Part shown: positions 19,953 to 36,859 of the stretch, piece by piece | Layout of the letters: every line of letters starts with the position of its first letter | Numbering within the stretch: the first letter of the stretch is position 1 | Program-made: the position numbers and the translations under genes | DNA from: Paracholeplasma morum | GTDB taxonomy: Bacteria > Bacillota_I > Bacilli_A > Acholeplasmatales > UBA5453 | Assembly (NCBI RefSeq): GCF_016907055.1 | Contig: NZ_JAFBBG010000001.1 | Span: 62,001 to 126,000 of the forward strand | Direction of reading: 5' to 3' | Length of the DNA: 64,000 bases | The notes under the pieces: generated by a model | Seen by the model: only the letters and a program-made list of their open reading frames with translations | Databases searched by the model: none | What the model was told of the DNA's origin: nothing

Positions 19953-22900
19953 TTAAGCTACGTTAATGTTTAACACTGTTTCAGTACTGTTATTGTTAAA
20001 TGCTTGAGCAATTTCAATCGTAACGTTGATGTTTCCACCTTGATTCCATTTGTATCTGGATAAATCAATCATTCCATTTGTTAAAATATCTGATTGAGTA
20101 ATCGATGTAGATGTCCCCGGAATTGAATTATTAAAGTCAGCTTCAAGAATTTCTACTAGGAAATTAGAGGTCGAATCATTATTGTTTCTAAAGTATTGTC
20201 CCCAGTAATCAAGTGATGAATTAAGTCTTGCATCCACGTGATATATTACAATACCCGCATTATCTAATACATGAGGTAAGTTAACATGGGCATTATAAAG
20301 ACCATTTGGCGTATAGAACATTACTAATAAGTACTCATCAAATGCGTTACCATCCTCTAAATCAGATGCTCTGTATGGAATTAATAAGGTGTTATTCAAT
20401 CCATCAGTATCTGTTGAGTATGCATCTAATGACACTTGGTATGAGCCTTGAGTTGCTAATAATGGTTGTACCCATCCTAATACCATCTTATTAAATGGTC
20501 CGTGGTCACCAGCATTATTATCCATCATGTCAAATCCACCTACTGCACCGTAGTCTAAAGCATCATTATATGGATATAAGTCAGGCATACCCATTAAGTG
20601 TCCCATTTCATGAACAAATGTTTCCGCATTGACTTTTAGGTTAGGCATACCAGGAAGTGTATCATTAATGAATGAATAACTTGCCCAGAAGTAATAGTTA
20701 AATAGTTTACCATCTAAAGCTGAAAGGTCGTTAGCAACGCCACCTTCTGCAGTAAATACCCATGCCCACCATGGATCAGTGCTTGTACTATAAGCTACTG
20801 AGTAGATGAAGATAACTGCGTCAATTAACCCATCATTATTGGAGTCATATTGACTATAATCAATTTGTGAATCAAGGCCTAATAAAGCTTCTTTAATTGC
20901 GTATTGATCTCCCTCATCTGCATAGTCTTCATAGAAAGACTTCGCATTTGAAGTTGTAAACTTAGGTGCAATATCAAATGTAACATCTAAGTTAGTATAA
21001 CTGCTCTTATAGTAATAACTTGCAACAGATTCCCATCCAGTTTCTAGAGAGGTTCCATTGAAAGCAATGTTTAATTTTTCTTCATAATCCATTGGGAATG
21101 GATTGCCTTTGATTTCTACAGGAATTACTAATGCATTGTATTTACCTGTTGAAGGTAGCCCTGATTTACCAAATTTTTCTATTTCAAACTCATTAATGGT
21201 TTGACGATGTGATAAGGTTTCAAGTGTTACTTTTTCAATTACAGGATCATATTTCCATACACGAACTGAAGCTGTTTGGCCATCAGCATCGATGTATAAT
21301 GCATATGCTAAATCGTCATTCATCTTAATTGAATAGACTGACTTGCCTCTGCTTAATGATAATATTTCATCAGCTTCATAACCTTGCAATACTAAGGCAG
21401 CTAAGTAATTATCTACTCTAGTTTGGAAGTCTTCATGAGCAAATACGCCATTGATTGCATATTCTAAACTGTTAATCTTTTTCAAGGTTAGTTCAGTTAT
21501 GCCTTCTAATTCAGGAAGTAAACTAGATAAGCCTGATTCGTTTAGATGACCACCTAATAATACAATCATGTCTGACCATGATTCAATTACTGGTGCGCTA
21601 CCTGAAGCCAATACAAAGTTAAATAGCATAAATTGTCCGCCATTTCCACTTGTATCCCCAGCACCTGTAAATACTAATCTAAACTTAGACGCATTTACAT
21701 TGTTGATGGTAATGGTTGTTTTATCTGAAGTGATTTGACTATAGAAGTCACCTCCAGCTAAATCCACCCAAGATGATCCATCAAACACTTGAACTTTACC
21801 ACCTTTTAAGCGGCTTGTGAATGCATCTCTTGCTTCAATTTCAAATGTAAATGACGCAATACTATTTCCAAGTGTATCTATTTCAATATAGGCTAGTGCA
21901 CTAGGGTTATTCTTAACATCTGCTGCAAAGATTAAACCTGCACTTAAACCACCAGGTAATGAACTTGCTTTAGATGAATCCGCAATGTTACTTACTTTAA
22001 CAACCACTTTTGAATCACTGCCCGGGAAAGTAATTACTTTATTAAGGTTAGTTCCATATGAAGTTGTAAGTTCAGTATCGGTATCTTGAACATTAAATTC
22101 GTAATATACACCTTCTACTGGTTCAACAGGATCTACTGGATCTGCTGTTGGTGTATTGTAGATTCCTACGACATATACCACTAAACCTTCATAGGTATCT
22201 GGATCTTCGAAAGCGTAAATGAAGTAGTTTCCTACAATAAATGCTTGTTCTGTTTCATCGTATTCGAACATAGCTTCTAAAGCATCCCAATAGTTACTAC
22301 CTTCGGTTTCAGTCCAGTCAAATGCATCGATGTAAACGACTAGTTCTTCACCTTCTGAATCATTAACAAGGCTATAATCGCTTGTCACAATTTCAGGAAT
22401 TAAAGCATAGAAATCAAACCCAAGAATTGCGTTAAGTTCAGTTGGATCAAATGAAGTATCATCGTTTCCTCCACCCGCTTTTTCGCCATAGACAACAAAC
22501 CCATAAACGGTTAATCCAGGATACGTTTCATCGTCTTCATAATATTCAACAAAGAAATCACCGATTTCGAAGCCTTGAACTTCTTCATTAAACAGTAAAG
22601 TAGCTTCGATCATATTAGCAAAAGCATCAAATTGTGCTGATGTAAAATCAAATAAGTCTACATATACTGTATATACTCCTTCATCTGATACGTCAGTAAT
22701 CAGATAGTCAGAAGAAACTATTGTAGGTAATAAATCAGAAATTGCGAATCCAAGGATTTCATCAAGTTCAGTCTTATCGTAGTCTTTACCTGCAAATTTA
22801 GATTGTGCAGTAAACTGAGCAACATAAGTTTGGTTCTTAGAAACGACTTCTAAAGCTGGAGCCCATCCGGAGAACACAAATGTATGTGTATCTGTCTCTG

Positions 22901-23732
22901 ACTTAACAGGAACTATACCCGCATAAGTTGGCATGACGCCTTCAGTGAATGATTCTACACTAATAGTTGAACCGTCTTCATTTTGCCATGTGATTTCAAA
23001 AATAGGTTTAACTACTTCTGTCCACTTAGCGTATAGGTCTAGGTCACCTTTTGAACCTGCTGCAATGCTTGTTACAGCGGTCACAAAATCCGCTTCTTTG
23101 TACCAACCTGCAAATACATAACCATCACGAGTAGGACTAGATAGTGTGATTGCATCTAAAACAGTATAGCTTACTGGGTTTAGATTTGAATTAACACCAT
23201 CATTAAGGTGATAGGTAATCTCGTAAGCATCTGTTTGCCATTTGGCATACAGATCAAGTGTTCCTTTAGAACCTTTTGCGATACTAGATACAGCAGTCTT
23301 AAAATCTGCCTCTTTATACCATCCACCAAACACATACCCATCACGAGTCGGATTTACAAGCGTTACTAAATCTACTATTGTGTAGCTTATAGGGTTACCA
23401 CTTGCGTTGATGCCATCGTTCAAGTGATAATTAATTTCGTATGTATTAATCTCCCATTTTGCGTACAAAGTCACAGTTTCTTTGATGTCTTCAGTTACTT
23501 TTGATTGTTCTGATAATGCAACATCATTATGCCAACTTTTAAAGGTATAACCTTCTCTAGTTGTAGAAACTTGGCTTAGTTTGTCGATACCATAGGTATC
23601 AGTGAATGAAACTGTTTCGATTGCTGTTCCCTCGTTGGTTACAAATGTGATTGTTTTTGCTTCTGTTTTATCACATGCATAAAGTCCAAACGAAAATAAC
23701 AATAATGCGAAAACCACCATTATTTTTTTCAT
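19953..23732 (-). CDS. Secreted lipoprotein M6-type metalloprotease with InlB-like repeats
   Basis: 1259 residues from the ATG at 23732; an upstream frame to 23861 lacks a ribosome site. A lipoprotein signal (lipobox LYAC) anchors it outside. Residues about 27-305 hold four Listeria-Bacteroides (InlB/Flg_new) repeats, each ending near GYxFxxWY...LYAKW. Two ~115-residue copies of an unknown domain follow (each with an LGF...LLP/LIP start and a YxxFxxDxxTYxGL end) and a weaker third copy (about 770-890). The catalytic part has the M6 zinc motif HEMGHLMGMPD near residue 1041 and a GFDMMD Met-turn. Immune inhibitor A is the known relative; target unknown. Confidence 0.88.
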   Translation of the reverse strand: MKKIMVVFALLLFSFGLYACDKTEAKTITFVTNEGTAIETVSFTDTYGIDKLSQVSTTREGYTFKSWHNDVALSEQSKVTEDIKETVTLYAKWEINTYEINYHLNDGINASGNPISYTIVDLVTLVNPTRDGYVFGGWYKEADFKTAVSSIAKGSKGTLDLYAKWQTDAYEITYHLNDGVNSNLNPVSYTVLDAITLSSPTRDGYVFAGWYKEADFVTAVTSIAAGSKGDLDLYAKWTEVVKPIFEITWQNEDGSTISVESFTEGVMPTYAGIVPVKSETDTHTFVFSGWAPALEVVSKNQTYVAQFTAQSKFAGKDYDKTELDEILGFAISDLLPTIVSSDYLITDVSDEGVYTVYVDLFDFTSAQFDAFANMIEATLLFNEEVQGFEIGDFFVEYYEDDETYPGLTVYGFVVYGEKAGGGNDDTSFDPTELNAILGFDFYALIPEIVTSDYSLVNDSEGEELVVYIDAFDWTETEGSNYWDALEAMFEYDETEQAFIVGNYFIYAFEDPDTYEGLVVYVVGIYNTPTADPVDPVEPVEGVYYEFNVQDTDTELTTSYGTNLNKVITFPGSDSKVVVKVSNIADSSKASSLPGGLSAGLIFAADVKNNPSALAYIEIDTLGNSIASFTFEIEARDAFTSRLKGGKVQVFDGSSWVDLAGGDFYSQITSDKTTITINNVNASKFRLVFTGAGDTSGNGGQFMLFNFVLASGSAPVIESWSDMIVLLGGHLNESGLSSLLPELEGITELTLKKINSLEYAINGVFAHEDFQTRVDNYLAALVLQGYEADEILSLSRGKSVYSIKMNDDLAYALYIDADGQTASVRVWKYDPVIEKVTLETLSHRQTINEFEIEKFGKSGLPSTGKYNALVIPVEIKGNPFPMDYEEKLNIAFNGTSLETGWESVASYYYKSSYTNLDVTFDIAPKFTTSNAKSFYEDYADEGDQYAIKEALLGLDSQIDYSQYDSNNDGLIDAVIFIYSVAYSTSTDPWWAWVFTAEGGVANDLSALDGKLFNYYFWASYSFINDTLPGMPNLKVNAETFVHEMGHLMGMPDLYPYNDALDYGAVGGFDMMDNNAGDHGPFNKMVLGWVQPLLATQGSYQVSLDAYSTDTDGLNNTLLIPYRASDLEDGNAFDEYLLVMFYTPNGLYNAHVNLPHVLDNAGIVIYHVDARLNSSLDYWGQYFRNNNDSTSNFLVEILEADFNNSIPGTSTSITQSDILTNGMIDLSRYKWNQGGNINVTIEIAQAFNNNSTETVLNINVA

Positions 23733-24469
23733 TAAATTCCCTCTTTCTATATTAATAATAATATGTGTTTTAGATATTATGATAGCATTAAACCACCACA
23801 AATGAAAGAACTTTTTCATATTTATTTCACTCATTAGTGTATTCAATAAAAAAACGGTCATTTTTATACTTTTTTTTGTTGGAAAACGCTTTAAAACGTT
23901 TTATCAAATTAGATGATCTTATCCAACTCTCCACTTTGATTACAAGAGTTACACTTAATATTGTTGTGCATTATGTCTTAATTTGGTTGCAAATAAGTTT
24001 TTTGATTGTTCCCTGAGAAGACAAAAAAGAAGCATTTAACCTAGTTTTAGTGGTTAGGTGCTTCTTATATTAATGTATGATGAATATTTTTCCTGTACAT
24101 GATTAAAATTTGTCTAAATTACCAAAAGTAATATATTTATTTGTTTATACATCTAAATTATCAGAACCGAATTATGTTATTAATCCTTTTTATTGCAAGA
24201 GTGATTTTAGGGTTTAGGCTCCCTTTGCTCTACTGAATTGTGTGCGCTATTTTAATATAATCACATAACATCTTTAAAATATACACACAACTAGAATTTG
24301 CTGCTTACTGTTAGAGTTCAAATCTTTGTATCTACATTGTTTAACACATAGAGGTTTTACACATATTTAGCATTCCTACTTTGGAAATATGTAAAATTTC
24401 ATTACGTTATAAAAGGACATAAAAATTAGAATTTTGGAATAAACTGTTGTTTTTAAACATATATTCAAT
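23733..24469. other. Gene-free stretch holding the left junction of the island
   Basis: No open frame of note. 23733-23880 should contain the protease promoter; none is convincing. Around 23883-23903 an interrupted palindrome (AAAACG-CTTTAA-AACGTTTT pattern) resembles a LacI/CcpA-type operator but does not match the cre consensus spacing. 24026-24135 matches the island junctions (see the repeat entry). 24136-24469 is AT-rich with no gene; ACAACTAGAATTT near 24286 recurs beyond the junction at 31829, so similarity to the other element end continues in patches. Confidence 0.5.
24029..24135. repeat. Degenerate island junction (copy D)
   Basis: 24029-24065 is a hairpin with the same AGAAGCATTTAAC left arm as the rlmD terminator. 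24083-24135 resembles the last part of the element-end repeat at 31752-31804 (TTCCT-TACATG, then TCTA, then ACCAAA-AGTAA-ATA). The rlmD tail and about 100 bases present in the other copies are missing between the two parts, which reads as a deletion. It would mark the far end of the island next to the protease gene. Confidence 0.55.
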
Positions 24470-26122
24470 TTATCCTTCGCAACTCGAACAACCTTCGCTC
24501 ATCACTTTTTTACGTGATAATGCTTGAGCTTGACTCATACTATATTGGTAGTAAAGCGATTTGATTCCCATATTATGTGCGTATAGATATAATGCATTGA
24601 TTTCCTTAACTGGAATGTCTGATGGAATCATTAAATTTATCGACTGTGCTTGATCTATATATTCTTGACGAATAGCTGCTTGATCAATAATTGAATGTGG
24701 ATTAATTTCTGCAAACGTTTTGAATACTTCTCTTTGCTCCAACGTTAAGAAATTCAAATGTTGAACTGAACCATCTGCCTTTCGGATGGATTCCCAAACA
24801 TCATCATTATCTTTACCAATTTCTACTAATAGTTCTCTTAAATAGGGATTCTTAAATGTCATTTTAGTTTTTGACAAGTCTTTAACATAATAATTTGAAA
24901 ACTCAGGTTCAACTGATTGGGATACTTGACCCAGTATTGTTGATGAACTCTTAGTTGGAGCAACTGCCATTAATGTCGTATTTCTACGACCATATCCAAT
25001 TAACACGTCTGGTTCACCATATAATTGAGCTAATTCAGCGGATGCTGCATATGTTTTCTCTTTAAGTGTTCTTGCAATTTCTACATTTTTCTGTGCAGCT
25101 TTTCTACTTTCAAAGGCGAGAAAATTGGATTGTAAATAGGAGTGCCACCCCAAAATACCAAGGCCTAAAGCACGATGTCTTTTTGCGAATGTGTTCGCTC
25201 TTTGATAATACATGTTATTTTCAGTTTTGTTTATAAATTCTGTAACAACAGTATCCAAAAAATACGTTAAAGTTTCAATTGCATCTGTGTTCTTCAATTC
25301 GTCCCAATGCAAAAGATTGATTGATGATAAAACACATGTAAATGTCTCATCATTACTTGAAGGCAGAGCAATTTCAGAGCACATATTACTTGCAAAGATT
25401 CTCGTGTTTTTATCGATATACACTTGGGGTTTATTCTTGTTAATATTATCGCTAAATAGAATATAAGGATAACCTATTTCACTTCTTCGTTGTAGTACTT
25501 TTGCCCACAATTTTCTTGAATGACTATCGCCTGATTTAACCTTTTCTAAGAAAGTATCAGATACAGTAATGCCTGTTGTTAAACCTTGAATTGGGTTACC
25601 TTCAGTACCTATATCTAAAAACTCATCCGCATCTGGATGTTCAATAGGCAAGTAAGCACTGAAAAAACCTCTTCTAACATTACCTTGTGAAACAACATCC
25701 GCTAAAGTATCAAACATTCTCATAAAGTGAACGGTACCATTTGAGTTACCACTATTCTTAATTGCAGCCCCACGATGCCTTACAGCTCCAAAAAATCCTG
25801 ATGTTCCGCCTCCGCTTTTCATTAACATTCCATTTTCTGCATGTCCAAATAAGATAGAATCCATCGTATCATCAATATATGAACCGAAACATGAAACTGG
25901 CAAACCTCTTTCTAAACCGTAGTTTGCCCATACAGGTGAAGATAATGAATAATATCCTCTACCCATGTATTCATAAAACTTATCTGCAAACCCTGGAATT
26001 CCTAAGTATTTCTCTGCTGTATTTGCAATGTGACGAATTCTATCTTGAGCAGTTTGTCCTTCAAGAAGGTATCCTCGTGAAAGGAATTTCTGAGATTCTT
26101 CATTTAACCATTCAAATGCCAT
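24470..26122 (-). CDS. nrdA: Class I ribonucleotide reductase catalytic subunit, short form without ATP-cone
   Basis: 550 residues, about 200 shorter than E. coli NrdA because the N-terminal ATP-cone is absent. The active site is complete: C78 in LPVSCFGS, N246, C248 and E250 in SNMCSEIALP, C263 in FTCVLSSINL, the paired radical-transfer tyrosines in KSLYYQYS, and C-terminal thiols C545 and C548 (CSSC) that pass electrons in. It reduces ribonucleotides aerobically with NrdB. The specificity-site region is retained. This architecture resembles NrdA of Leeuwenhoekiella and Facklamia, where overall activity control moved to NrdB. Last gene of the operon, 24 bases after nrdB. Confidence 0.93.
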   Translation of the reverse strand: MAFEWLNEESQKFLSRGYLLEGQTAQDRIRHIANTAEKYLGIPGFADKFYEYMGRGYYSLSSPVWANYGLERGLPVSCFGSYIDDTMDSILFGHAENGMLMKSGGGTSGFFGAVRHRGAAIKNSGNSNGTVHFMRMFDTLADVVSQGNVRRGFFSAYLPIEHPDADEFLDIGTEGNPIQGLTTGITVSDTFLEKVKSGDSHSRKLWAKVLQRRSEIGYPYILFSDNINKNKPQVYIDKNTRIFASNMCSEIALPSSNDETFTCVLSSINLLHWDELKNTDAIETLTYFLDTVVTEFINKTENNMYYQRANTFAKRHRALGLGILGWHSYLQSNFLAFESRKAAQKNVEIARTLKEKTYAASAELAQLYGEPDVLIGYGRRNTTLMAVAPTKSSSTILGQVSQSVEPEFSNYYVKDLSKTKMTFKNPYLRELLVEIGKDNDDVWESIRKADGSVQHLNFLTLEQREVFKTFAEINPHSIIDQAAIRQEYIDQAQSINLMIPSDIPVKEINALYLYAHNMGIKSLYYQYSMSQAQALSRKKVMSEGCSSCEG

Positions 26123-26146
26123 ATTTATAGCTCCGTTCCTATTAAT

Positions 26147-27385
26147 TTAAAACAAATCATCTTCAGTAAATGATTTTGTTTTTTTAGAATATGCAACACT
26201 TCGTTTAACAAAAAAGTCAATATTTTTTGTACTTAATGTTTCTTCAATAAACCAATCAGTTTCTTTGATCGCAGTTTTATCAACTTCAAATATAGCCTCT
26301 AATCCAATAGATTGAATAGATTCATTGAATCTATTTTTGATGAATTCTTTTACCACGTATTTGGATAAAAAAACTAAATCTGCATTCCCGTAAATCCAGT
26401 CAACGATTTCAGATTCAGCTTCGTAAGCTTCGATGCACGCTTTCTTGATCTGCTCGATTTTTTTTAAGTCGAACCACTCTGGATTTTCTTTTTTAATAAT
26501 GTTTACAACATCAAAACCAAATCTCGCATGGATATCTTCTTCTTTGGATGTTGCTTCCACCGCGTTGGAAATACCTTTTAAGACATTCTTGTGTTTATTA
26601 AAAGACATCATAATTAGAAATTGAGAAAATAGCGAAACATTCTCAACAAACATGGAAAACAAAATGATGTTATTAAAATAGTCTTCATTGTCTATAGGTG
26701 TTTTATTTACTTTTTCAAGATATGCAATACGTTTTTTAATTGATGGAACATTGATTAAATCTTCAAATTTTTCATTCAATCCTAATAACTCAATTAGGTT
26801 TGAATATGCATCAGCATGTCTTACTTCAGATTCTGCAAATGTAACACCAACACTTTGAAACTCAGGTTTTGGAAATCTTTCGTATATCTTCGACCAAAAT
26901 GTTTTGACTGCAACTTCAATCTGTGCAATTGCTAACATTGCGTTTTCTATAATGGAAATTTCTTCAGGTTTAAGATTGACTTTCATATCTTGAATATCTG
27001 AGTTGTAGTTGAATTCTGTATGAATCCAGTATGAGTGGCGGATAGCGTCAACATATTCCATAATCTCAGGATACTCGTATGGTTTTAGATTTGTTCGTTT
27101 TTTAAAGATATCTTTCTTATGTAATAGTCTGTAAGTAATATATGCTCTTGCTGCTTCAAAATGACCTATACGCATTAGCTCGTTTTCAACAAAGTTGTGA
27201 ATTTGGTCGACATGAATCGAATCAACGCCCATGTCATAAATCTGTTTGTGAACTGCTACTGCTATGTCTTTTGGGAGATTTTCTCCAGGCTCACTTGAAA
27301 CTGTACTCATAGCTTTTCTTACAGCTTTTTCAATCTTTTCGAGCGTATAATTTTGTGCTTTACCATTCTTTTTTATTACTATCAT
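26147..27385 (-). CDS. nrdB: Class I ribonucleotide reductase radical subunit with N-terminal ATP-cone
   Basis: 412 residues from the ATG at 27385 (GGGGG ribosome site). Residues about 1-90 are an ATP-cone (VIKKNGKAQNYTLEKIEKAV, then ARAYITYRLLHKK), normally on the catalytic subunit. The ferritin-like domain has both metal half-sites: Glu in QIEVAVKTFW, ESEVRH with a Tyr four residues after the His (position of E. coli Y122), Glu in FVENVSLFSQF and KEEDIH. NrdB ATP-cones of this kind were shown in Leeuwenhoekiella blandensis to switch the enzyme off with dATP by tetramerising NrdB. A 105-base gap separates it from nrdG, so an internal promoter is possible. Confidence 0.93.
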   Translation of the reverse strand: MIVIKKNGKAQNYTLEKIEKAVRKAMSTVSSEPGENLPKDIAVAVHKQIYDMGVDSIHVDQIHNFVENELMRIGHFEAARAYITYRLLHKKDIFKKRTNLKPYEYPEIMEYVDAIRHSYWIHTEFNYNSDIQDMKVNLKPEEISIIENAMLAIAQIEVAVKTFWSKIYERFPKPEFQSVGVTFAESEVRHADAYSNLIELLGLNEKFEDLINVPSIKKRIAYLEKVNKTPIDNEDYFNNIILFSMFVENVSLFSQFLIMMSFNKHKNVLKGISNAVEATSKEEDIHARFGFDVVNIIKKENPEWFDLKKIEQIKKACIEAYEAESEIVDWIYGNADLVFLSKYVVKEFIKNRFNESIQSIGLEAIFEVDKTAIKETDWFIEETLSTKNIDFFVKRSVAYSKKTKSFTEDDLF

Positions 27386-27490: not shown

Positions 27491-28156
27491 TTATGATAAT
27501 TCATTCAGATTGACAAACCTATGGATTTCATAAGGTGTATCCTTATGATACTTTTTATTAAGAAGATCAATCCATACTTGACACTCTAGAAAAGCAGATG
27601 GATGAAGAAATGGATATTTGACACTTCGTATTTGATTAAAGCCTTTATCAGTTTTGACCACCCATTCTATCGTTTCAATCATTTGATCAATTTCGATTTG
27701 ACTTAAACTTCGTCCTAGCGTTTGTGTAACAATATCCTCATCTTGGATTGTAAGTAGATGGTAAGGAAGCTTTAAATCAACATGATACCCATCCACCATG
27801 CCCTTTTCCCACAGCATACGCATTTTTTCTCCATAATACCCTGTAGTGTAGATGACTATCGGTTTAATGGAAGCATTTCTTACCTTTTTTAGATCTAATA
27901 TAAGATGTTCAATCGGAGCTTGTAAAAATTCACCACCACTGAAAACAATCATTTCAATGATGTTTTCGTGCTGTTGAATAATTGTTATCACTTCATCAAT
28001 GGATAAAGCATCCGGGTGTCTTTTTAAAATGATTTCATCATAGTTTATGCACTTGTAACAACGAAACATACAACCTGTTAAACCGTGAATGAGAATTACT
28101 GTTTTTCCAGAAACTTCAGCTAAGGTTATCTGTACATGCGGATAGTATCTGATCAT
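27491..28156 (-). CDS. nrdG: Anaerobic ribonucleotide reductase activase (radical SAM)
   Basis: 221 residues. The radical-SAM cluster motif is CMFRCYKC (C29, C33, C36; CxxxCxxC), followed by VFSGGEFLQAP, the GGE SAM-binding motif, and a PIVIYTTGYYGEKM strand. NrdG-type enzymes put the glycyl radical on NrdD. It is longer than E. coli NrdG (154 residues) and closer to the AF- or archaeal-type activases. The start overlaps the nrdD stop by four bases (ATGA), so both proteins are made together. Confidence 0.92.
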   Translation of the reverse strand: MIRYYPHVQITLAEVSGKTVILIHGLTGCMFRCYKCINYDEIILKRHPDALSIDEVITIIQQHENIIEMIVFSGGEFLQAPIEHLILDLKKVRNASIKPIVIYTTGYYGEKMRMLWEKGMVDGYHVDLKLPYHLLTIQDEDIVTQTLGRSLSQIEIDQMIETIEWVVKTDKGFNQIRSVKYPFLHPSAFLECQVWIDLLNKKYHKDTPYEIHRFVNLNELS

Positions 28157-30084
28157 TTTGAATCTTCAACTTTAAATCTTCTTCGTTGAGCCCAATCAAG
28201 TCTTCTCGCCTTACTCCAAAAGTTATAGTCACCATGATAATAACCTTCTGAATTGACATGAATGTTTTGTCTAGCAATCATACGAACATAACCAATGACA
28301 CGTGAGAACGCTGCTATATCTGTTGATCCACAAACCGGGCATGAAGTGATATCTTTAGCATCCTTCCCAACAATACGTTGACCACATTGCTGACATGATG
28401 TAATTGTTGGAGTTAAGGTGATATAATTAATCGGTTTCTGGAATAAATTCCTTAAATAGTTTGCTAAAACTTCAGGTTCGATCTTATCTTCAAGGAAGTG
28501 ATGCAAGATAGAACCAGATGTGGCATATCCTTGAAACTCTGCTGCATTCTCAATTTGTTCATGAAAATCAACTTCACTAAACGGTAGCATACATCCACTT
28601 GTCAAATATACATCGTCACCCTGACCTTGAACAAAAATTTCTCTATTTCGTTCTTTAGCCCATTTCACATCATGCCGAGCTAACTTGATGCCTGCATTTT
28701 CAGCAGGAGCATATTCAATGCCACATGCTACATGATCTCGAACAATAAACTCATTGATGATATCGCTCATGTATTGCATGAGATTATGAGCATATTTACG
28801 GGCTTCTATATCTTTTAACCCATTTTGAAAACCTGAGTTAATTAAACCTTCATGCATGCCTGTGATTGCAAAGACATTGAAATAGTTTTTTAGATTATGA
28901 TTAAAAGCAAAAAATGTTGGATAGAGTTCTTTATGATTTTCAACCCATGATCTCTTAGCCATATGACCTTCTTGCATGATTTCTAAGTACTCACGTATTT
29001 TCTGTTTAAGTAAGTTTTGATCATGACCAAATTCAATCATCATACGATTCATGTTAAGATTAAGAACTTGAATAGCCCCTACATTACCTACACTGCTTCC
29101 AAATATCCCCCCTCCTGCACGAGATAAAACAGATAAATCAATATTTAAACGACAGCACAAACTCCGTGATACAGAGGGATCTTTTGGTTTGATATACGGA
29201 TTTAATTGAGTATAATATGGATCTGTAAACGGTCTTGTTCTAAAGTTTTCAAAATAGACACCACCCCATTGATACATTTGTTCAAGCAATTGCTTAAACA
29301 CTTCATTTCCATAGTTAAAATCATCATCAATTTGAACTGTTACTAATGGAAATGTCAAAGGAATACCTTTTTGAGTTCCTTTAGCCATTGCGTTGATAAA
29401 TGCTAAGTTGATGCGATCAAAATAAATTGCGGGTATTTCTTTATACTGGTAATCTTTAGGTTCTCCACCAACAATCACATACTCATCTTTAATTTCTTCA
29501 GATGGTTTGCCAAATTCAAGCGTGCAATTTGAAAAGGCTGACTCAGAACCTGAACGTAGTGGTAAATTGAGTTCATAGACTAACTGATACATTAATTTAG
29601 TTAAAGTATGATCTGTATAAAACTGACGATTCAACTCTTCTTCATATAAGTAAGAAGCTAAAATCGTTGTCATTTGCGAAAGCATGACAGCTCCACTAAC
29701 CTGTTGGCTCATCAATGTGACAACGTTGCTGAAATGTCGAATGAGTGTCGGAAGTGATGATGCTGGGCCACTCTCTAACATATTCTTCGCTAGACTTGGA
29801 ATACCAAGAGTAGCAATATCTTTGCATGATACACTTTGGCAATAAGAGGATAACTGTTTATCGTGAATATAGACAACACCATCCTCATATAATTCTGTTA
29901 GTTTTTTCGGTAAAACATACTTTAATAGATATTCTTCTTCTGCCTTATTCGTGATATTCTTTCGCAATAAAGGCAGTGAATAAACAAAATTACTGTTCTC
30001 TCTTTTTAAGTAATCTGCTTTCTTGTCTTCATCATTTCCAATAAATTTGTTAATTAATTCATCTGTCGTTTTAAACATAGCCAT
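28153..30084 (-). CDS. nrdD: Anaerobic (class III) ribonucleotide reductase, glycyl radical enzyme
   Basis: 643 residues. The glycyl-radical loop RVIGYVRM places G598 as the radical residue. A zinc-ribbon (CQQCG, about 24 residues, CPVCGS) precedes it as in other NrdD. The N-terminus begins directly with the catalytic fold and has no ATP-cone, so dATP control of overall activity seems absent. A paired cysteine region YCQSVSCKD (about residue 110) and RSLCCRLNID (about residue 308) are candidate catalytic thiols. Needs NrdG, encoded next. It works without oxygen while NrdAB works with oxygen; having both in one operon suits varying oxygen levels. Confidence 0.95.
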   Translation of the reverse strand: MAMFKTTDELINKFIGNDEDKKADYLKRENSNFVYSLPLLRKNITNKAEEEYLLKYVLPKKLTELYEDGVVYIHDKQLSSYCQSVSCKDIATLGIPSLAKNMLESGPASSLPTLIRHFSNVVTLMSQQVSGAVMLSQMTTILASYLYEEELNRQFYTDHTLTKLMYQLVYELNLPLRSGSESAFSNCTLEFGKPSEEIKDEYVIVGGEPKDYQYKEIPAIYFDRINLAFINAMAKGTQKGIPLTFPLVTVQIDDDFNYGNEVFKQLLEQMYQWGGVYFENFRTRPFTDPYYTQLNPYIKPKDPSVSRSLCCRLNIDLSVLSRAGGGIFGSSVGNVGAIQVLNLNMNRMMIEFGHDQNLLKQKIREYLEIMQEGHMAKRSWVENHKELYPTFFAFNHNLKNYFNVFAITGMHEGLINSGFQNGLKDIEARKYAHNLMQYMSDIINEFIVRDHVACGIEYAPAENAGIKLARHDVKWAKERNREIFVQGQGDDVYLTSGCMLPFSEVDFHEQIENAAEFQGYATSGSILHHFLEDKIEPEVLANYLRNLFQKPINYITLTPTITSCQQCGQRIVGKDAKDITSCPVCGSTDIAAFSRVIGYVRMIARQNIHVNSEGYYHGDYNFWSKARRLDWAQRRRFKVEDSK

Positions 30085-30141
30085 TTTTCTAATCCCCTTT
30101 ATTTTAAGTATAAAAAAAGCACACCGTTCACGAGGGTATGC

Positions 30142-30177: not shown

Positions 30178-30345
30178 CTCCCAGGAGAATGGTATTGTGG
30201 TCTAAGGTAGGTCTACCGGCTCAACTTCATTCTACATGCACCTTCCCGATTTCTCAGTGGTATATTGCATTTCGTCTATTTCACGGTTGCTGGGACAGCC
30301 CAAGATTATCACTTGATTCCCTGTTATGCATGAATGCACCTTATG
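30178..30345 (-). ncRNA. Cobalamin (B12) riboswitch upstream of nrdD
   Basis: On the - strand the aptamer shows its conserved blocks in order: AAGGTGCA at the 5' side (around 30334-30342), CAGGGAA, AAGTGATAATC, GGGCTGTCCC-AGCAACCGTGA (the J-region block), and the B12 box GAGCCGGTAGACCTACCTT (30204-30222), close to the consensus GAGCCAGGAGACCTGCCT. With a terminator 30 bases after the box, ligand binding should reduce transcription. Cobalamin riboswitches before B12-independent ribonucleotide reductases shut these off when a B12-dependent class II enzyme can work. That implies a class II enzyme and cobalamin supply elsewhere in the genome. Confidence 0.88.
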
Positions 30346-30350
30346 TTTCG

Positions 30351-30379
30351 ATTGTATATTAAATGATTGGTCAAGTCAA
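30351..30379 (-). promoter_or_regulatory. Promoter of riboswitch-nrd operon
   Basis: On the - strand TTGACT (30374-30379) and TACAAT (30351-30356) are 17 bases apart and lie just before the aptamer. It directly abuts the broken recombinase gene at 30383, so the operon boundary equals the recombinase deletion boundary. Confidence 0.75.
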
Positions 30380-30382
30380 TAA

Positions 30383-31468
30383 CAAGAAGTAGGCATTGGT
30401 GTAGGTCTAGGAAAAATTTTAGAGCAACTCATTGAGATGGGTGCCAAGACAGGTGCTGGTAAAACAGAATGGCGACTTTCAACGATTACAACGATTCTAA
30501 AGAATGAGAAATACATGGGTGACATGCTGCAACAAAAAACAATCAGCATCGATTATTTGAGTCATGCAAGAGTCAAGAATACAAATCACGCACCTACTTA
30601 TTATACAGAAAATAGTCATGAAGCAATCATCGATAGAGAAACCTTTGAACTTGCTCAACGTATTAGAAAAGATAGAGCTAAGGTTAGAATTGGCGAGGAT
30701 AAAAACCTCTCAAAATATAGTAGAACATATCCTTTGACGGCAATGATTATTTGTAGCGAATGTGGTCGAACGCTAAAAAGACGTTATTGGAACTACGGTA
30801 AGCCATCACAAAGGGTCATGCAACAGTGTGGCAGTTACATTGACGGTAAAGCGAATTGTAATGCAAAGGCGAGTCGTCAAGATCTCATTGAAGCAACAAC
30901 AATTCATATGCTAAACAAAGTCTTCTTAAAAGATCTAGATATCATGTCAACCATTCAAAAGGTAATTAAATCAACCATCAAAGTCGATGATATCCAAAAT
31001 ATCATTGAAAAGTTAACATCAGAAAGAGATGAAAACGAAATAGCATTATCAAATCTAATTGATACTAAGGTAAAAGCACCCGATATTCCAGAATCAATAT
31101 TTAATGCAAAGTATAGATAATACTCCGATCGTCTTAAAGTTCTAACTGCAGAGATTAACAAACTTGAACTTGAACATGTAGAAAACTATGACACCAGAAA
31201 ACGTATGGATAAGATCAACGAGATTCTAGGTAAAAAGAATCTAGTCATCGATGAACTTGATTCAGAGATTTTGAGTACATTCATCTATAAAATGATATCC
31301 GTAAGTCCAAATGAGATTGTATACTGTATTGCTGGAACCAAGAATTATTCAGACAATGAGTTCAAAGAACGACGTTTTGAGTTCTTAAAAACTGAACCAA
31401 TCATTGTGGAAACATATCACGCGCCCGATGGCTTAGCTAAGATGTTATATCGGGTTGTAGTGATATAA
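30383..31468 (+). pseudogene. Remnant of a large serine recombinase
   Basis: One frame runs from about 30383 to 31468 with a single in-frame TAA at 31118. The encoded sequence is the C-terminal half of a large serine recombinase: the recombinase domain (GVGLGKILEQL, TITTILKNEKYMGDMLQQKT), a zinc ribbon (ICSECGRTLKRR, then QQCGSYI..ANCNA), a long coiled-coil (about 30950-31230) and a C-terminal beta tail ending in RVVVI. The whole N-terminal catalytic domain with its serine is missing upstream, where the nrd promoter begins. So it is inactive. It marks the adjoining region as a mobile element end. Confidence 0.85.
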
Positions 31469-31874: not shown

Positions 31875-32945
31875 CTATTCAAACATTCTTTCTACTACTG
31901 AAATTGACTTGTTATAAAAATCAACTTTCCCTTTAATCCCGTAAGGAATAATGGTTCTTGGAAGTGCATGTCCAAAGTTTAAGTTATATACTATGGGTAA
32001 ACCCATATCATTTGATATCTTCAATAATACTTCTTTATATTCTTGATAATAGACCTCATCATATGGTTTACCAACCAATAAACACCTAGCATGACTAATA
32101 ACACCTTCTTCAATTAAGAAGTAAAGCATACTTTCAAACATTTTTGGTGTTGGTTTTTCTTCACTTGTTTCGAGAAATATGATTTTGTCAGTAAAAAAAT
32201 CTTTGTTAGGAATTAACCCATACTTATCATAAATATGCCTTTGATCTGGATACCTCTCACTTGTGTACAAATCATAGATACTTTCTAGACATCCTCCCCA
32301 GAATACGCCATCAATGACATCCGATCCATTTAAGAACTCGTGCCCTTTGTTTTCATCTAAATCGTAAAGCGGAACAGATAGTTGATCTACGCCATAGTTT
32401 GTTCTATTCAAATACCATTTAGAACTAGATTTTATTTCAAACTGTTCATCATTTATAAATAATCTCTTGTAGCTGTTCAGTGTGTATGGAATCATTTCCT
32501 TCTGTAGTTCACAAAGATCTGATAAGAAATTTAACCCATAATAAGTTACTAATCCTAATTTATTTAGCATCAAATGATTATTCGTAGAATCTGAAAAACC
32601 TATAAAAACTTTCGGATTTGAAAGTACCAGACTTTTAAACTCCTCATTCATAAGATACGGTATTGTTTTATAAGTATCGTCCCCACCAATGGCACAAATA
32701 ATGCCCTTTATAGTCGGATCTTTAAATGCAAGTCTTAAATCATCAGCTCTTTTACTCGGGTTGTTTTTTACAAAGTCTAATCCCTTTAGCGCATTAGGCA
32801 TAAAGACAGGTTCAAGACCTAGTTCTTCTAATCTTTTTATGCCAAGTTCTACCTGGTGTTTCACTTTAGGTTCACCTAATATACCCGATGATAAACTAAC
32901 AATGGCGATTTTGTCACCCTTTTTAAGTTGTTTAGGCTTAATCAT
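31875..32945 (-). CDS. S66 family LD-carboxypeptidase / MccF-like peptidase
   Basis: 356 residues. The S66 triad is visible: nucleophile S118 in FIGFSDSTNNH, Glu in FWGGCLESIYDL and His in NFGHALPRTI. The opening MIKPKQLKKGDKIAIVSLSSG is typical. Relatives either trim murein tetrapeptides in the cytoplasm (LdcA) or give self-immunity to microcin C-type peptidyl-nucleotide toxins (MccF). The large size and the active-site loop GFSDSTN fit the MccF branch slightly better, and a wall-less host would make murein trimming unlikely. The start lies inside the abiEii stop region (8-base overlap), so it belongs to the abiE transcript. Confidence 0.85.
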   Translation of the reverse strand: MIKPKQLKKGDKIAIVSLSSGILGEPKVKHQVELGIKRLEELGLEPVFMPNALKGLDFVKNNPSKRADDLRLAFKDPTIKGIICAIGGDDTYKTIPYLMNEEFKSLVLSNPKVFIGFSDSTNNHLMLNKLGLVTYYGLNFLSDLCELQKEMIPYTLNSYKRLFINDEQFEIKSSSKWYLNRTNYGVDQLSVPLYDLDENKGHEFLNGSDVIDGVFWGGCLESIYDLYTSERYPDQRHIYDKYGLIPNKDFFTDKIIFLETSEEKPTPKMFESMLYFLIEEGVISHARCLLVGKPYDEVYYQEYKEVLLKISNDMGLPIVYNLNFGHALPRTIIPYGIKGKVDFYNKSISVVERMFE

Positions 32946-33819
32946 TATTATCCCCCAAATCCACTTTAATTTGCTCCGTAATGGATTTAAAAAACTCGCG
33001 ACTCCAAAGGTCTAAACTAGACTGATCTTTAATAAATGGTCTAACATCGGATTTGGCAATATCATAATCAATCTGGTCGAATCGTTTTTTCAACATGTCA
33101 ATTAATAAATCTCGAGTCAACTTGATGTTTTCGTCAATTGTCTTAGTTTGTTTCAGTCTAGATTCTAAGTGTTTTAAATTCACTTTTGTCTCTAAACTTA
33201 AATAATAGACATAATCATATAAATCTCTGCCCTTTATGCGGTTCTTCCAACTTCTAGCAATCACGGCATGAATTTTACCAGCAAATAACGATGAAGCATC
33301 ATAAACTCGAACTTGATAGGGGAATGGTAATAAACGAAACTTTATTTCTGTATGTGCGTATAGCGGTGGATTTACATCAACTTCAAACTTGATGATAATC
33401 TTTTCGTTATGGATAATAAGTCTAGAATCCGACGAACTTGAATAAATAGTCATCAAGGTTTCTTTTGTATTACCTTTGATGAAAGCTGAATCAATATTTG
33501 AGTTTACTGTCTTATCCTTTTTGGAAACTTCAAAATTGAGTCCAAGTGAGTTTACAGCATCACTTATTGGTTTAAAATATTTACTAATATCAAAAGTATC
33601 ATCTGATACAAGTAGACTAAAGTCCAAATCCTCACTAAATCTATCCATTCCGTAAAAAATTCTTAAAGCTGTTCCACCATAAAAAGCAGCTTGGGTAAAA
33701 AAGTCGGTTTTAGAAAGACCTGCCAAAACCACTTCTTGTAAAACTTCTTTTATTGCGTGTTTCTTATCTTCTAACGTTTTCGGATTATACTTATTGATCA
33801 TCTGCTGAATAATTGTCAT
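32938..33819 (-). CDS. AbiEii-type nucleotidyltransferase toxin, copy 2
   Basis: 293 residues, AbiEii/AbiGii family. The nucleotidyltransferase motif is FYGGTAL (G48, G49) plus RFSEDLDF (D64 and D66, metal ligands), followed by the KFEVDVNPPLYAHTEIKFRLLPFPY strand region (third acidic position) and KIHAVIARSWKNRIKGRDLYDYVYYL, the family's conserved K/R..GRDxYD helix. AbiEii toxins modify tRNA 3' ends in characterised relatives and abort phage infection or stabilise elements. Overlaps abiEi by four bases. About 95% identical to the copy at 35391. Confidence 0.9.
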   Translation of the reverse strand: MTIIQQMINKYNPKTLEDKKHAIKEVLQEVVLAGLSKTDFFTQAAFYGGTALRIFYGMDRFSEDLDFSLLVSDDTFDISKYFKPISDAVNSLGLNFEVSKKDKTVNSNIDSAFIKGNTKETLMTIYSSSSDSRLIIHNEKIIIKFEVDVNPPLYAHTEIKFRLLPFPYQVRVYDASSLFAGKIHAVIARSWKNRIKGRDLYDYVYYLSLETKVNLKHLESRLKQTKTIDENIKLTRDLLIDMLKKRFDQIDYDIAKSDVRPFIKDQSSLDLWSREFFKSITEQIKVDLGDNND

Positions 33820-34406
33820 TTCATATACTCACTTTCAATGTATTTTCTTAAGTAATTCATATTGCTCGAGATGTATTTATCAGATAAAAACAGTATTTCA
33901 TCAAAGTTAAGTTGTTCAAAGATATCCTTGTTTATCCGTAAATCATCAAAAAGTAACATTTTTAGTTCTTTCATACTTTTTACTGGTTTTCTTATATATA
34001 GTAAATCACATAGTGCTTTTTCTGGGTTAGCCATAAAATAAGCATACCCGTCTTTTTCATATGCTTTTACTGAAAAAGGAAATGCAGCATTTGGAACATC
34101 TCTATAGGTATAAAGTCCGAAATGGTTTTGATAAACTTTGCTTTTTCTTTTGTTGAATGTTGCATTTGTATAAGTAACAACCCTTTCAGGGATGAGATTA
34201 TGATATGAAAGTGCATATTCGAAAGATAAATAGGATGGTCCATAAATATAAGAAGCGAGTAAAAATCCATCAGCTGATTCGTTAGTTTCATAAATACCAC
34301 GTACAAGAGGAAATAAGAAACCACTATCAATGTCTCTTTTGATTTTACCATTAATATCCGTATAATCCTTATACTTTTCTTTTAGGTTTAGTGTTGTAAC
34401 AATCAT
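33816..34406 (-). CDS. AbiEi-type antitoxin/transcriptional repressor, copy 2
   Basis: 196 residues. An N-terminal winged-helix part (GKIKRDIDSGFLFPLVRGIYE) leads to the AbiEi domain with IYGPSYLSFEYALSYHNLIPERV and a C-terminal PEKALCDLLY segment, the hallmark of the family. AbiEi proteins repress their own promoter and neutralise AbiEii in type IV toxin-antitoxin systems. First gene of the abiE pair, with GGAGG ribosome site and a near-consensus promoter. It differs from the copy at 36269 by scattered substitutions, mostly in the N- and C-terminal thirds. Confidence 0.88.
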   Translation of the reverse strand: MIVTTLNLKEKYKDYTDINGKIKRDIDSGFLFPLVRGIYETNESADGFLLASYIYGPSYLSFEYALSYHNLIPERVVTYTNATFNKRKSKVYQNHFGLYTYRDVPNAAFPFSVKAYEKDGYAYFMANPEKALCDLLYIRKPVKSMKELKMLLFDDLRINKDIFEQLNFDEILFLSDKYISSNMNYLRKYIESEYMK

Positions 34407-35365: not shown

Positions 35366-35398
35366 GTCACCTATTTTAAGTTGTTTGGGTTTAATCAT
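35366..35398 (-). pseudogene. First 11 codons of an ldcA-like gene (fragment)
   Basis: After abiEii copy 1 the sequence reads MIKPKQLKIGD, almost the same as the start of the intact S66 peptidase at 32945, with the same overlap to the abiEii stop. Similarity then ends abruptly. The rest of the gene was deleted or replaced. Confidence 0.8.
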
Positions 35399-36272
35399 TA
35401 TTATCCACTAAATCTACTTTAATTTGCTTAGTAATGGATTTAAAAAATTCGCTACTCCAAAGGTCTAAACTAGACTGATCTTTAATAAATGGGCTAACAT
35501 CGGATTTGGCAATATCATAATCAATCTGATCAAATCGTTTTTCCAACATGTCAATTAATAAATCTCGAGAAAGTTTGATGTCTTCGTCAATTGTTTTAGT
35601 TTGTTTGAGTCTAGATTCTAAGTGTTTTAAATTAGCTTTTGTCTCTAAACTTAAATAATAGACATAATCATATAAATCTCTGCCCTTTATGCGGTTCTTC
35701 CAACTTCTAGCAATCACAGCATGAATTTTGCCAGCAAATAACGATGAGGCATCATAAACTCGAACTTGGTATGGGAATGGTAATAATCGAAACTTAATTT
35801 CTGTATGTGCGTATAGTGGGGGATTTACATTAACTTCAAACTTTATGATAATCTTTTCATTATGAACAATAAGTCTGGAATCTGATGAACTTGAATAAAT
35901 AGTAATCAAGGTTTCTTTTGTATTACCTTTGATGAAAGCTGAATCAATATTTGAGTTTACCGTCTTATCCTTTTTGGAAACTTCAAAATTGAGTCCAAGT
36001 GAGTTTACGGCGTCACTTATTGGTTTAAAATATTTACTTATATCAAAAGTATCATCTGATACAAGTAAGCTAAAGTCCAAATCCTCACTAAATCTATCCA
36101 TTCCGTAAAAAATTCTTAAAGCTGTTCCACCATAAAAAGCAGCATGGGTAAAAAAGTCAGTTTTAGAAAGACCAGCCAACACCACTTCTTGTAAAACTTC
36201 TTTTATTGCATGCTTCTTATCTTCTAAGGTTTTTGGATTATACTTATTGATCATCTGCTGAATAATTGTCAT
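35391..36272 (-). CDS. AbiEii-type nucleotidyltransferase toxin, copy 1
   Basis: 293 residues; same motifs as the copy at 32938 (GGTAL at 48-52, RFSEDLDF with D64 and D66, KGRDLYDY). Differences include H43 for Q43, FEVNVNP for FEVDVNP (the third acidic position of the catalytic site) and several in the C-terminal 40 residues. The D-to-N change in the strand after KFEV may affect metal binding, so one copy could be weakened. The frame is intact. Four-base overlap with its abiEi. Confidence 0.9.
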   Translation of the reverse strand: MTIIQQMINKYNPKTLEDKKHAIKEVLQEVVLAGLSKTDFFTHAAFYGGTALRIFYGMDRFSEDLDFSLLVSDDTFDISKYFKPISDAVNSLGLNFEVSKKDKTVNSNIDSAFIKGNTKETLITIYSSSSDSRLIVHNEKIIIKFEVNVNPPLYAHTEIKFRLLPFPYQVRVYDASSLFAGKIHAVIARSWKNRIKGRDLYDYVYYLSLETKANLKHLESRLKQTKTIDEDIKLSRDLLIDMLEKRFDQIDYDIAKSDVSPFIKDQSSLDLWSSEFFKSITKQIKVDLVDNND

Positions 36273-36859
36273 TTCATATACTCACTTTCAATGTATTTTC
36301 TTAAGTGCTTCATATTGTTCGATATGTATTTATCAGATAAAAATAGTATTTCATCAAAGTTTAGTTGTTCAAACATATCTTTATTTACCCATAAATCCTC
36401 AAAAAGCAGTCTCTTTAATTCTTTGATACTTGTTACTGGTTTTCTATTATATAGTAAATCACATAGTGCTTTTTCTGGGCTAGCTATAAAGTAAGCATAC
36501 CCGTCTTCTTCATAAGCTTTTACTGAATAAGGAAATGCAGCATTTGGAACATCTCTATAGGTATAAAGTCCGAAATGATTTTGATAAACCTTACTTTTTC
36601 GTTTGTTGAATGTAGCACTCGTATAAACAACAACTCTTTCAGGAATGAGATTATGATAGGAAAGTGCATATTCGAAAGATAAATAGGATGGTCCATAAAT
36701 ATATGAAGCAAGTAAAAAACCATCAACCGAGCTTTCTGTTTCATAAATGCCTCGTACAAGAGGAAATAAGAAACCATTATCAATATCTCTTTTGATTTTG
36801 CCATTAATATCCGTATAACTCTTATACTTTTCTTTTAAGTTTAATGTTGTAACAATCAT
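36269..36859 (-). CDS. AbiEi-type antitoxin/transcriptional repressor, copy 1
   Basis: 196 residues, AbiEi family, same architecture as the copy at 33816 (winged helix, IYGPSYLSFEYALSYHNLIPERV, PEKALCDLLY). Substitutions are concentrated around residues 12-50 and 135-170, where repressor and toxin contacts would lie, so each pair may have its own specificity. Intact frame, own promoter, GGAGG ribosome site. Confidence 0.88.
   Translation of the reverse strand: MIVTTLNLKEKYKSYTDINGKIKRDIDNGFLFPLVRGIYETESSVDGFLLASYIYGPSYLSFEYALSYHNLIPERVVVYTSATFNKRKSKVYQNHFGLYTYRDVPNAAFPYSVKAYEEDGYAYFIASPEKALCDLLYNRKPVTSIKELKRLLFEDLWVNKDMFEQLNFDEILFLSDKYISNNMKHLRKYIESEYMK

Follow-up and report, generated by a model that had tools for sequence, protein, structure and literature searches.

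A predicted class Id ribonucleotide reductase with a shortened, phage-type ATP-cone on NrdB, encoded behind a putative B12 riboswitch in Paracholeplasma morum

Introduction

Overall activity of ribonucleotide reductases (RNRs) is governed by a master switch, the ATP-cone, and for cones linked to NrdB we found biochemical data on two enzymes in the literature. In the first, NrdAi/NrdBi of Leeuwenhoekiella blandensis (PDB 5OLK, 6SF5), an N-terminal cone on NrdB is combined with a cone-less NrdA; the cone extends to residue 103, Arg102 is the single protein contact of the γ-phosphates, and in the dATP tetramer Asp73 forms salt bridges with Arg95 and with the Lys89 of the partner cone (PMC5794259). 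The cone-on-NrdB architecture was already published in 2018. The second is a class Id NrdBi from the Firmicute Facklamia ignava, which carries a glutaredoxin domain, a cone and the NrdB core, and for which a dATP switch was shown (PMC6187632). Cones on the β subunit are reported almost exclusively with β-α gene order (PMC9669993). The presence of a cone is no guarantee of dATP inhibition: the class I enzymes of phage T4, whose cone is on NrdA, and of T. brucei have cones that bind dATP, yet are not inhibited by it (PMC3267527).

At the level of transcription, B12 riboswitches precede B12-independent RNR genes in genomes that also encode NrdJ, namely nrdABS in Streptomyces, and nrdAB and nrdDG in Propionibacterium acnes (PMC4991794, PMC3848588).

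The window analyzed here is a stretch of 64,000 nucleotides from Paracholeplasma morum that contains an nrdDG-nrdBA cluster. We computed its domain layout, class Id residues, the single cone in the genome, the kinship with phages, the residue losses in the cone, and the riboswitch. What is new is a cone of phage type in a cellular genome, and the genomic setting of that cone.

Results and Discussion

Gene Organization and Domain Layout

All on the minus strand, nrdD, nrdG, nrdB, and nrdA follow one another in that order from 30084 down to 24470 (Table 1). An in-frame TTG lies two codons 5′ of the nrdB ATG, and the nrdG-nrdB gap is 99 nt. The best NCBIfam match of the NrdG-like protein is TIGR02495, at 60.8 bits, under the cut-off of that model. 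We infer that nrdDG and nrdBA are co-transcribed as one operon.

Table 1. Features of the nrd cluster and its leader (window coordinates).
Feature	Position	Strand	Description
nrdA	24470..26122	-	predicted class Id catalytic subunit, 550 aa, cone-less; TIGR02510 755 bits
nrdB	26147..27385	-	predicted class Id radical-generating subunit, 412 aa from ATG; PF03477 + PF00268
ATP-cone of NrdB, residues 1-91	27113..27385	-	short-joint phage type
nrdG-like	27491..28156	-	radical-SAM activase; PF04055; 4-nt overlap with nrdD
nrdD	28153..30084	-	class III reductase, 643 aa, cone-less; PF13597 E 3e-82
Terminator-like hairpin	30112..30141	-	GCAUACC-loop-GGUGUGC + seven U; -9.3 kcal/mol, z -3.0; between aptamer and nrdD
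Cobalamin riboswitch aptamer	30189..30358	-	RF00174; Rfam 88 bits, E 2.3e-20, full model 1-189; 5′ of nrdD

PF03477 matched NrdB with 68 bits (cut-off 25.8; E 1.1e-18) and was followed by PF00268. The only profile matches of NrdA were PF02867/PF00317 and the NCBIfam equivalog TIGR02510, and no ATP-cone was found in NrdA, NrdD, or NrdG in the profile search. The original prediction, which placed the cone on NrdB, none on NrdA, and none on NrdD, is thereby borne out: of the two outcomes that would have contradicted it, lack of a profile match over NrdB residues 1-90 and a cone in NrdA, neither occurred, and the gene coordinates confirm the subunit lengths it had given. It had also called the NrdB cone the only one in the operon. 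Since PF03477 matched once in the whole 1.56-Mb genome (99% complete), namely in NrdB, this statement holds for the genome, beyond the operon; the same search was positive in 12 of 14 control genomes. The single match being the NrdB cone, no NrdR was found in the genome. A B12-dependent NrdJ (840 aa; PRK08115, 1391 bits) is encoded on another contig, and no cone was found in it by the PF03477 genome search. A prophage in the window was considered and rejected, as nothing phage-like was noticed among the genes surrounding the nrd cluster (260-kb contig).

Assignment to Class Id

In searches against the PDB, 5OLK was the best match of the window NrdB (E 1e-139, full chain with cone), as had been expected from the proposed kinship with L. 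blandensis, and also the top Foldseek match; the best solved relative of NrdA was 6dqx (E 1e-222), which we take to be a class Id catalytic subunit. Because 5OLK matches the full chain, cone included, chance is excluded as the source of the cone match; the fold search by itself shows just that the cone-NrdB fold is already known.

The class Id signature residues, as defined in PMC6754362, are all conserved, where tested, between the window and L. blandensis. Glu replaces Asp as the first metal ligand (E157, aligned with L. blandensis E170), the conserved Trp is present with a Lys three residues earlier (W164 and K161, corresponding to W177 and K174), and so are the other ligands (E187, H190, E248, E283, H286) and the retained Tyr (Y194). 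The catalytic subunit is short and without PF03477. By sequence, the pair is thus assigned to the class Id NrdAi/NrdBi reductases, and a Mn(III)Mn(IV) cofactor would be expected in the enzyme. The two full NrdB proteins are 54% identical. The β-α gene order, also shared with L. blandensis, fits the cone-on-β pattern (PMC9669993). Unlike the F. ignava protein, window NrdB has no glutaredoxin domain, and unlike in L. blandensis, the pair has nrdDG and a B12 riboswitch upstream.

Anatomy of the Short Cone

The window cone was compared, residue by residue, with 35 distinct ordinary cones and 45 distinct viral short-cone sequences (sets of 30 and 15). The window and all 45 viral sequences lack four residues right after the YR of helix α4, at the joint between cone and core; the missing residues correspond to L. 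blandensis 98-101. An assembly error behind this 12-nt deletion was rejected, the same deletion being found in 45 further distinct viral sequences. At the next position, that of Arg102, Arg is present in 35/35 ordinary cones and in 1/30 and 1/15 of the two viral sets; in the window this position is deleted or occupied by His89. Gln72 is replaced by His in every short cone, and the motif IQDxVE is changed to IHxxVE. Asp73 is found in 35/35 ordinary cones and in 30/30 sequences of one short group; the window has Asn64 instead, and its own viral group has Thr, Arg, Lys, or Gln. Glu stands at this position in one viral sequence (L202), which the NrdB tree puts in the other short group. Lys89 is replaced by Arg in the window (Arg80) and in its group.

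Much of the nucleotide site is retained. The inner-site and shared contacts K11, R12, K23, Y91, and R95 of L. blandensis correspond to K5, K6, K17, Y82, and R86 in the window, with R12 alone changed (to Lys). The window also retains Glu67 and, at the hydrophobic positions of the cone-cone contact, M71 and I83. In P. copri NrdD, Arg91, after Arg87, is used (PMC11226230); by analogy, Lys90 of the window, one turn past R86, may replace the lost Arg102.

In an AlphaFold2 model of window NrdB (pLDDT 83.7, built on 30 sequences), α4 is short (residues 76-88). The model best matches 5OLK, at 3.9 Å for the whole chain and at 1.4 Å for the core alone, and the domains are therefore differently placed in the model, a weak hint that their placement may differ from 5OLK in the protein itself.

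The partner subunits follow the cone type in part. A 12-residue insertion in NrdA is present in 29/29 cellular partners of ordinary cones and absent in 18/18 cone-less cellular pairs, yet the window's group has a cone on NrdB and an NrdA without the insertion, another difference from L. blandensis. Strict coupling of the NrdA insertion to the NrdB cone was therefore rejected, with the window's subclade and four cone-less viral pairs as exceptions.

Relationship to Phage Reductases

The closest relatives found are encoded on phage contigs (80% identity for NrdA and 66% for NrdB), and the best cellular relatives reach 61% and 56%. Relatives at 63-66% over the full NrdB were obtained in a scan of viral contigs, and at 69-80% in the corresponding NrdA scan. 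The IMG/VR phage pairs L064-L078, L173-L187, and L244 (62-66% identity for NrdB, 69-80% for NrdA) share with the window the short cone and the insertion-free NrdA; unlike the window pair, they are phage-borne and have no adjoining nrdDG. The flanks of two viral contigs contain genes for tail-fibre, helicase, ligase, RNase H, and DNA-polymerase-exonuclease. A scan of a plasmid collection gave weak or cone-less relatives only.

Among cells, a scan of 84,980 species, one genome each, yielded 51 loci with relatives, none above 60% identity; no short cone was among them, and every classifiable full cone was ordinary. The NrdB-NrdA pair of the window was found in no other of the 160 genomes of the order, where three others have ordinary relatives (59-60%), and no other short cone was found in 395 genomes of the class. 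The rarity expected at the outset was confirmed in the phylum, with three other matches among 392 genomes, besides one in a genome of the same genus (G005). In the latter, the gene for an NrdB with an ordinary cone occupies two separate frames (L062/L063), either because it is disrupted or through an error in sequencing.

In a tree of the NrdB core (IQ-TREE, cone columns left out), the window belongs to a group of 12 rows (support 100/99), itself nested in a short-cone clade of 23 rows (100/99) whose other rows are all viral; both short-cone sister groups are viral. In the NrdA tree (short search), the window lies within 13 rows, the others viral, with support 100. The end branch of the window is 0.27 long in NrdB and 0.19 in NrdA. 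We name this assemblage the short-cone phage NrdBi clade; its cone is a derived form, marked by the four-residue deletion after YR and by IHxxVE, and the assemblage forms one clade in the core-only tree. No description of the short-cone form was found in the searchable literature. A large second phage group (L188-L251) has the same four-residue cone deletion, keeps Asp73, and has an NrdA with the 12-residue insertion.

B12 Riboswitch and Regulation

In the leader of nrdD, the RF00174 match is followed by a hairpin and U-tract that provide an expression platform (Table 1). The consensus scan, which admits loops of at most 8 nt, did not list the hairpin. The whole leader folds no more stably than shuffled sequences (z 0.24), and the terminal hairpin alone stood out. 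Because the promoter scan returned 28 promoter-like sites, with 32 expected by chance, no separate nrdBA promoter is claimed. We predict that the nrd cluster is controlled by the B12 riboswitch. The cluster looks like a B12-independent back-up set, because the genome also encodes the B12-dependent NrdJ; the arrangement resembles those of Streptomyces and P. acnes, but here one riboswitch stands ahead of nrdDG, followed by class Id-type nrdBA. The genome's second cobalamin riboswitch (L007, G000 contig 5) lies 5′ of genes, probably for B12 uptake, that encode a DUF4430 protein and a membrane protein.

No riboswitch was found at five viral short-cone loci tested, nor at the nrdDG locus of a relative from the same order (G019, L146). 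The NrdD proteins of the window and this relative are 84% identical. The relative has the order nrdI-nrdD-nrdG-nrdE (class Ib; nrdI and nrdE assigned by reading the sequence, with no profile), as opposed to nrdD-nrdG-nrdB-nrdA in the window. Since a class Ib nrdE is found there, one of the two lineages appears to have swapped the class I cassette behind nrdDG.

Proposed Role and Alternatives

We give about an even chance to the following reading: phage-derived nrdBA of class Id type, with a short cone, is placed after the nrdDG genes native to the bacterium and comes under a B12 riboswitch, and the NrdB cone is the only activity sensor. The pair would have been acquired from a phage lineage in which the cone was already shortened, a direction of transfer that we infer, and would now sit behind the native cone-less genes. 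When B12 is scarce, transcription would read through the riboswitch, and the nrdDG/nrdBA set would supply dNTPs in place of NrdJ, with NrdDG operating without oxygen and NrdBA with it. The cone has most likely retained its binding of adenine nucleotides and a tuning role in NrdB assembly. Control by dATP should differ from that of L. blandensis, in strength or geometry, because the γ-phosphate Arg and the Asp73 contacts are lost and four residues are missing from the joint; the dATP response of this sensor cannot be read off L. blandensis. The dATP off-switch that had been proposed for this NrdB is plausible, and an altered or lost dATP inhibition is equally likely.

Under one alternative, the sequence changes are tolerated and the switch is the ordinary one of L. 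blandensis, in which two dATP per cone lead to inactive NrdB tetramers and ATP to an active dimer. The Pfam match, the whole-chain kinship to 5OLK, the retention of K5, K17, Y82, R86, Glu67, M71, and I83, and the possible substitution by Lys90 agree with it. The F. ignava cone, just 28% identical to that of L. blandensis, tetramerises nonetheless, but the two resemble each other chiefly in the C-terminal cone segment (PMC6187632), exactly where the window cone is altered. Since Arg102 and Asp73, which none of the 35 ordinary cones lacks, are both lost and the joint is shortened, we regard an ordinary switch as unlikely.

Another possibility is a desensitised or vestigial cone: phage selection for steady dNTP supply would have removed dATP inhibition, and the domain left behind would bind nucleotides or have a structural role alone. 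The precedent is the T4 class I enzyme, also a phage-type reductase with an ATP-cone, whose loss of inhibition is reported (PMC3267527) and may be paralleled here. Forms can be arranged in steps from the ordinary cone through short HDxVE and short HxxVE cones to no cone. Two close viral relatives lack the cone altogether (in L079 an unrelated frame stops just before the NrdB start, and in L176 NrdB begins at the core), so that the cone is dispensable in the window's lineage. At equal core identity, cones of the window's group are slightly more divergent than ordinary ones (0.40 vs. 0.43, 0.49 vs. 0.55, and 0.68 vs. 0.74), which hints at mild relaxation. The excess is small, however, and the window and the 45 distinct viral short-cone sequences alike preserve an intact reading frame and the majority of the nucleotide-site residues; we regard a desensitised cone, too, as unlikely. 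A fuller version, in which a phage-evolved short NrdB cone without a dATP off-state was taken up by an NrdR-less bacterium as its only cone-bearing reductase, with transcriptional control by B12 as the main brake, is in our estimate quite unlikely. Very unlikely is the opposite direction, or no transfer, with an old bacterial lineage owning the pair and phages taking it from such hosts: the window's own branch leaves room for an unsampled bacterial source, but the cellular scans of species, order, and class gave no other short cone, and both sister groups are viral.

The phage series (ordinary cones, short cones with and without Asp73, and cone-less forms), together with the cellular member, is a natural mutant series that could show which contacts turn dATP into an off-signal. 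On the preferred reading, phage acquisition, it would also document a reductase cassette that moved between phage lineage and chromosome to end up behind a B12 riboswitch, in a genome in which no NrdR was found.

Neighbouring Genes

Just 3′ of nrdA, a 1302-aa M6-type metalloprotease with List_Bact repeats is encoded at 19953-23861 (minus strand). A region divergent from the nrd cluster, at 30437-31468 (plus strand), holds part of a recombinase (PF07508, PF13408) along with another short frame; together they probably represent a disrupted serine recombinase. Near-duplicate AbiEii toxin (PF08843) pairs, each with an upstream partner gene that is probably AbiEi, occupy 32938-34406 and 35391-36859 (minus strand) and are probably two copies of a type IV toxin-antitoxin system.
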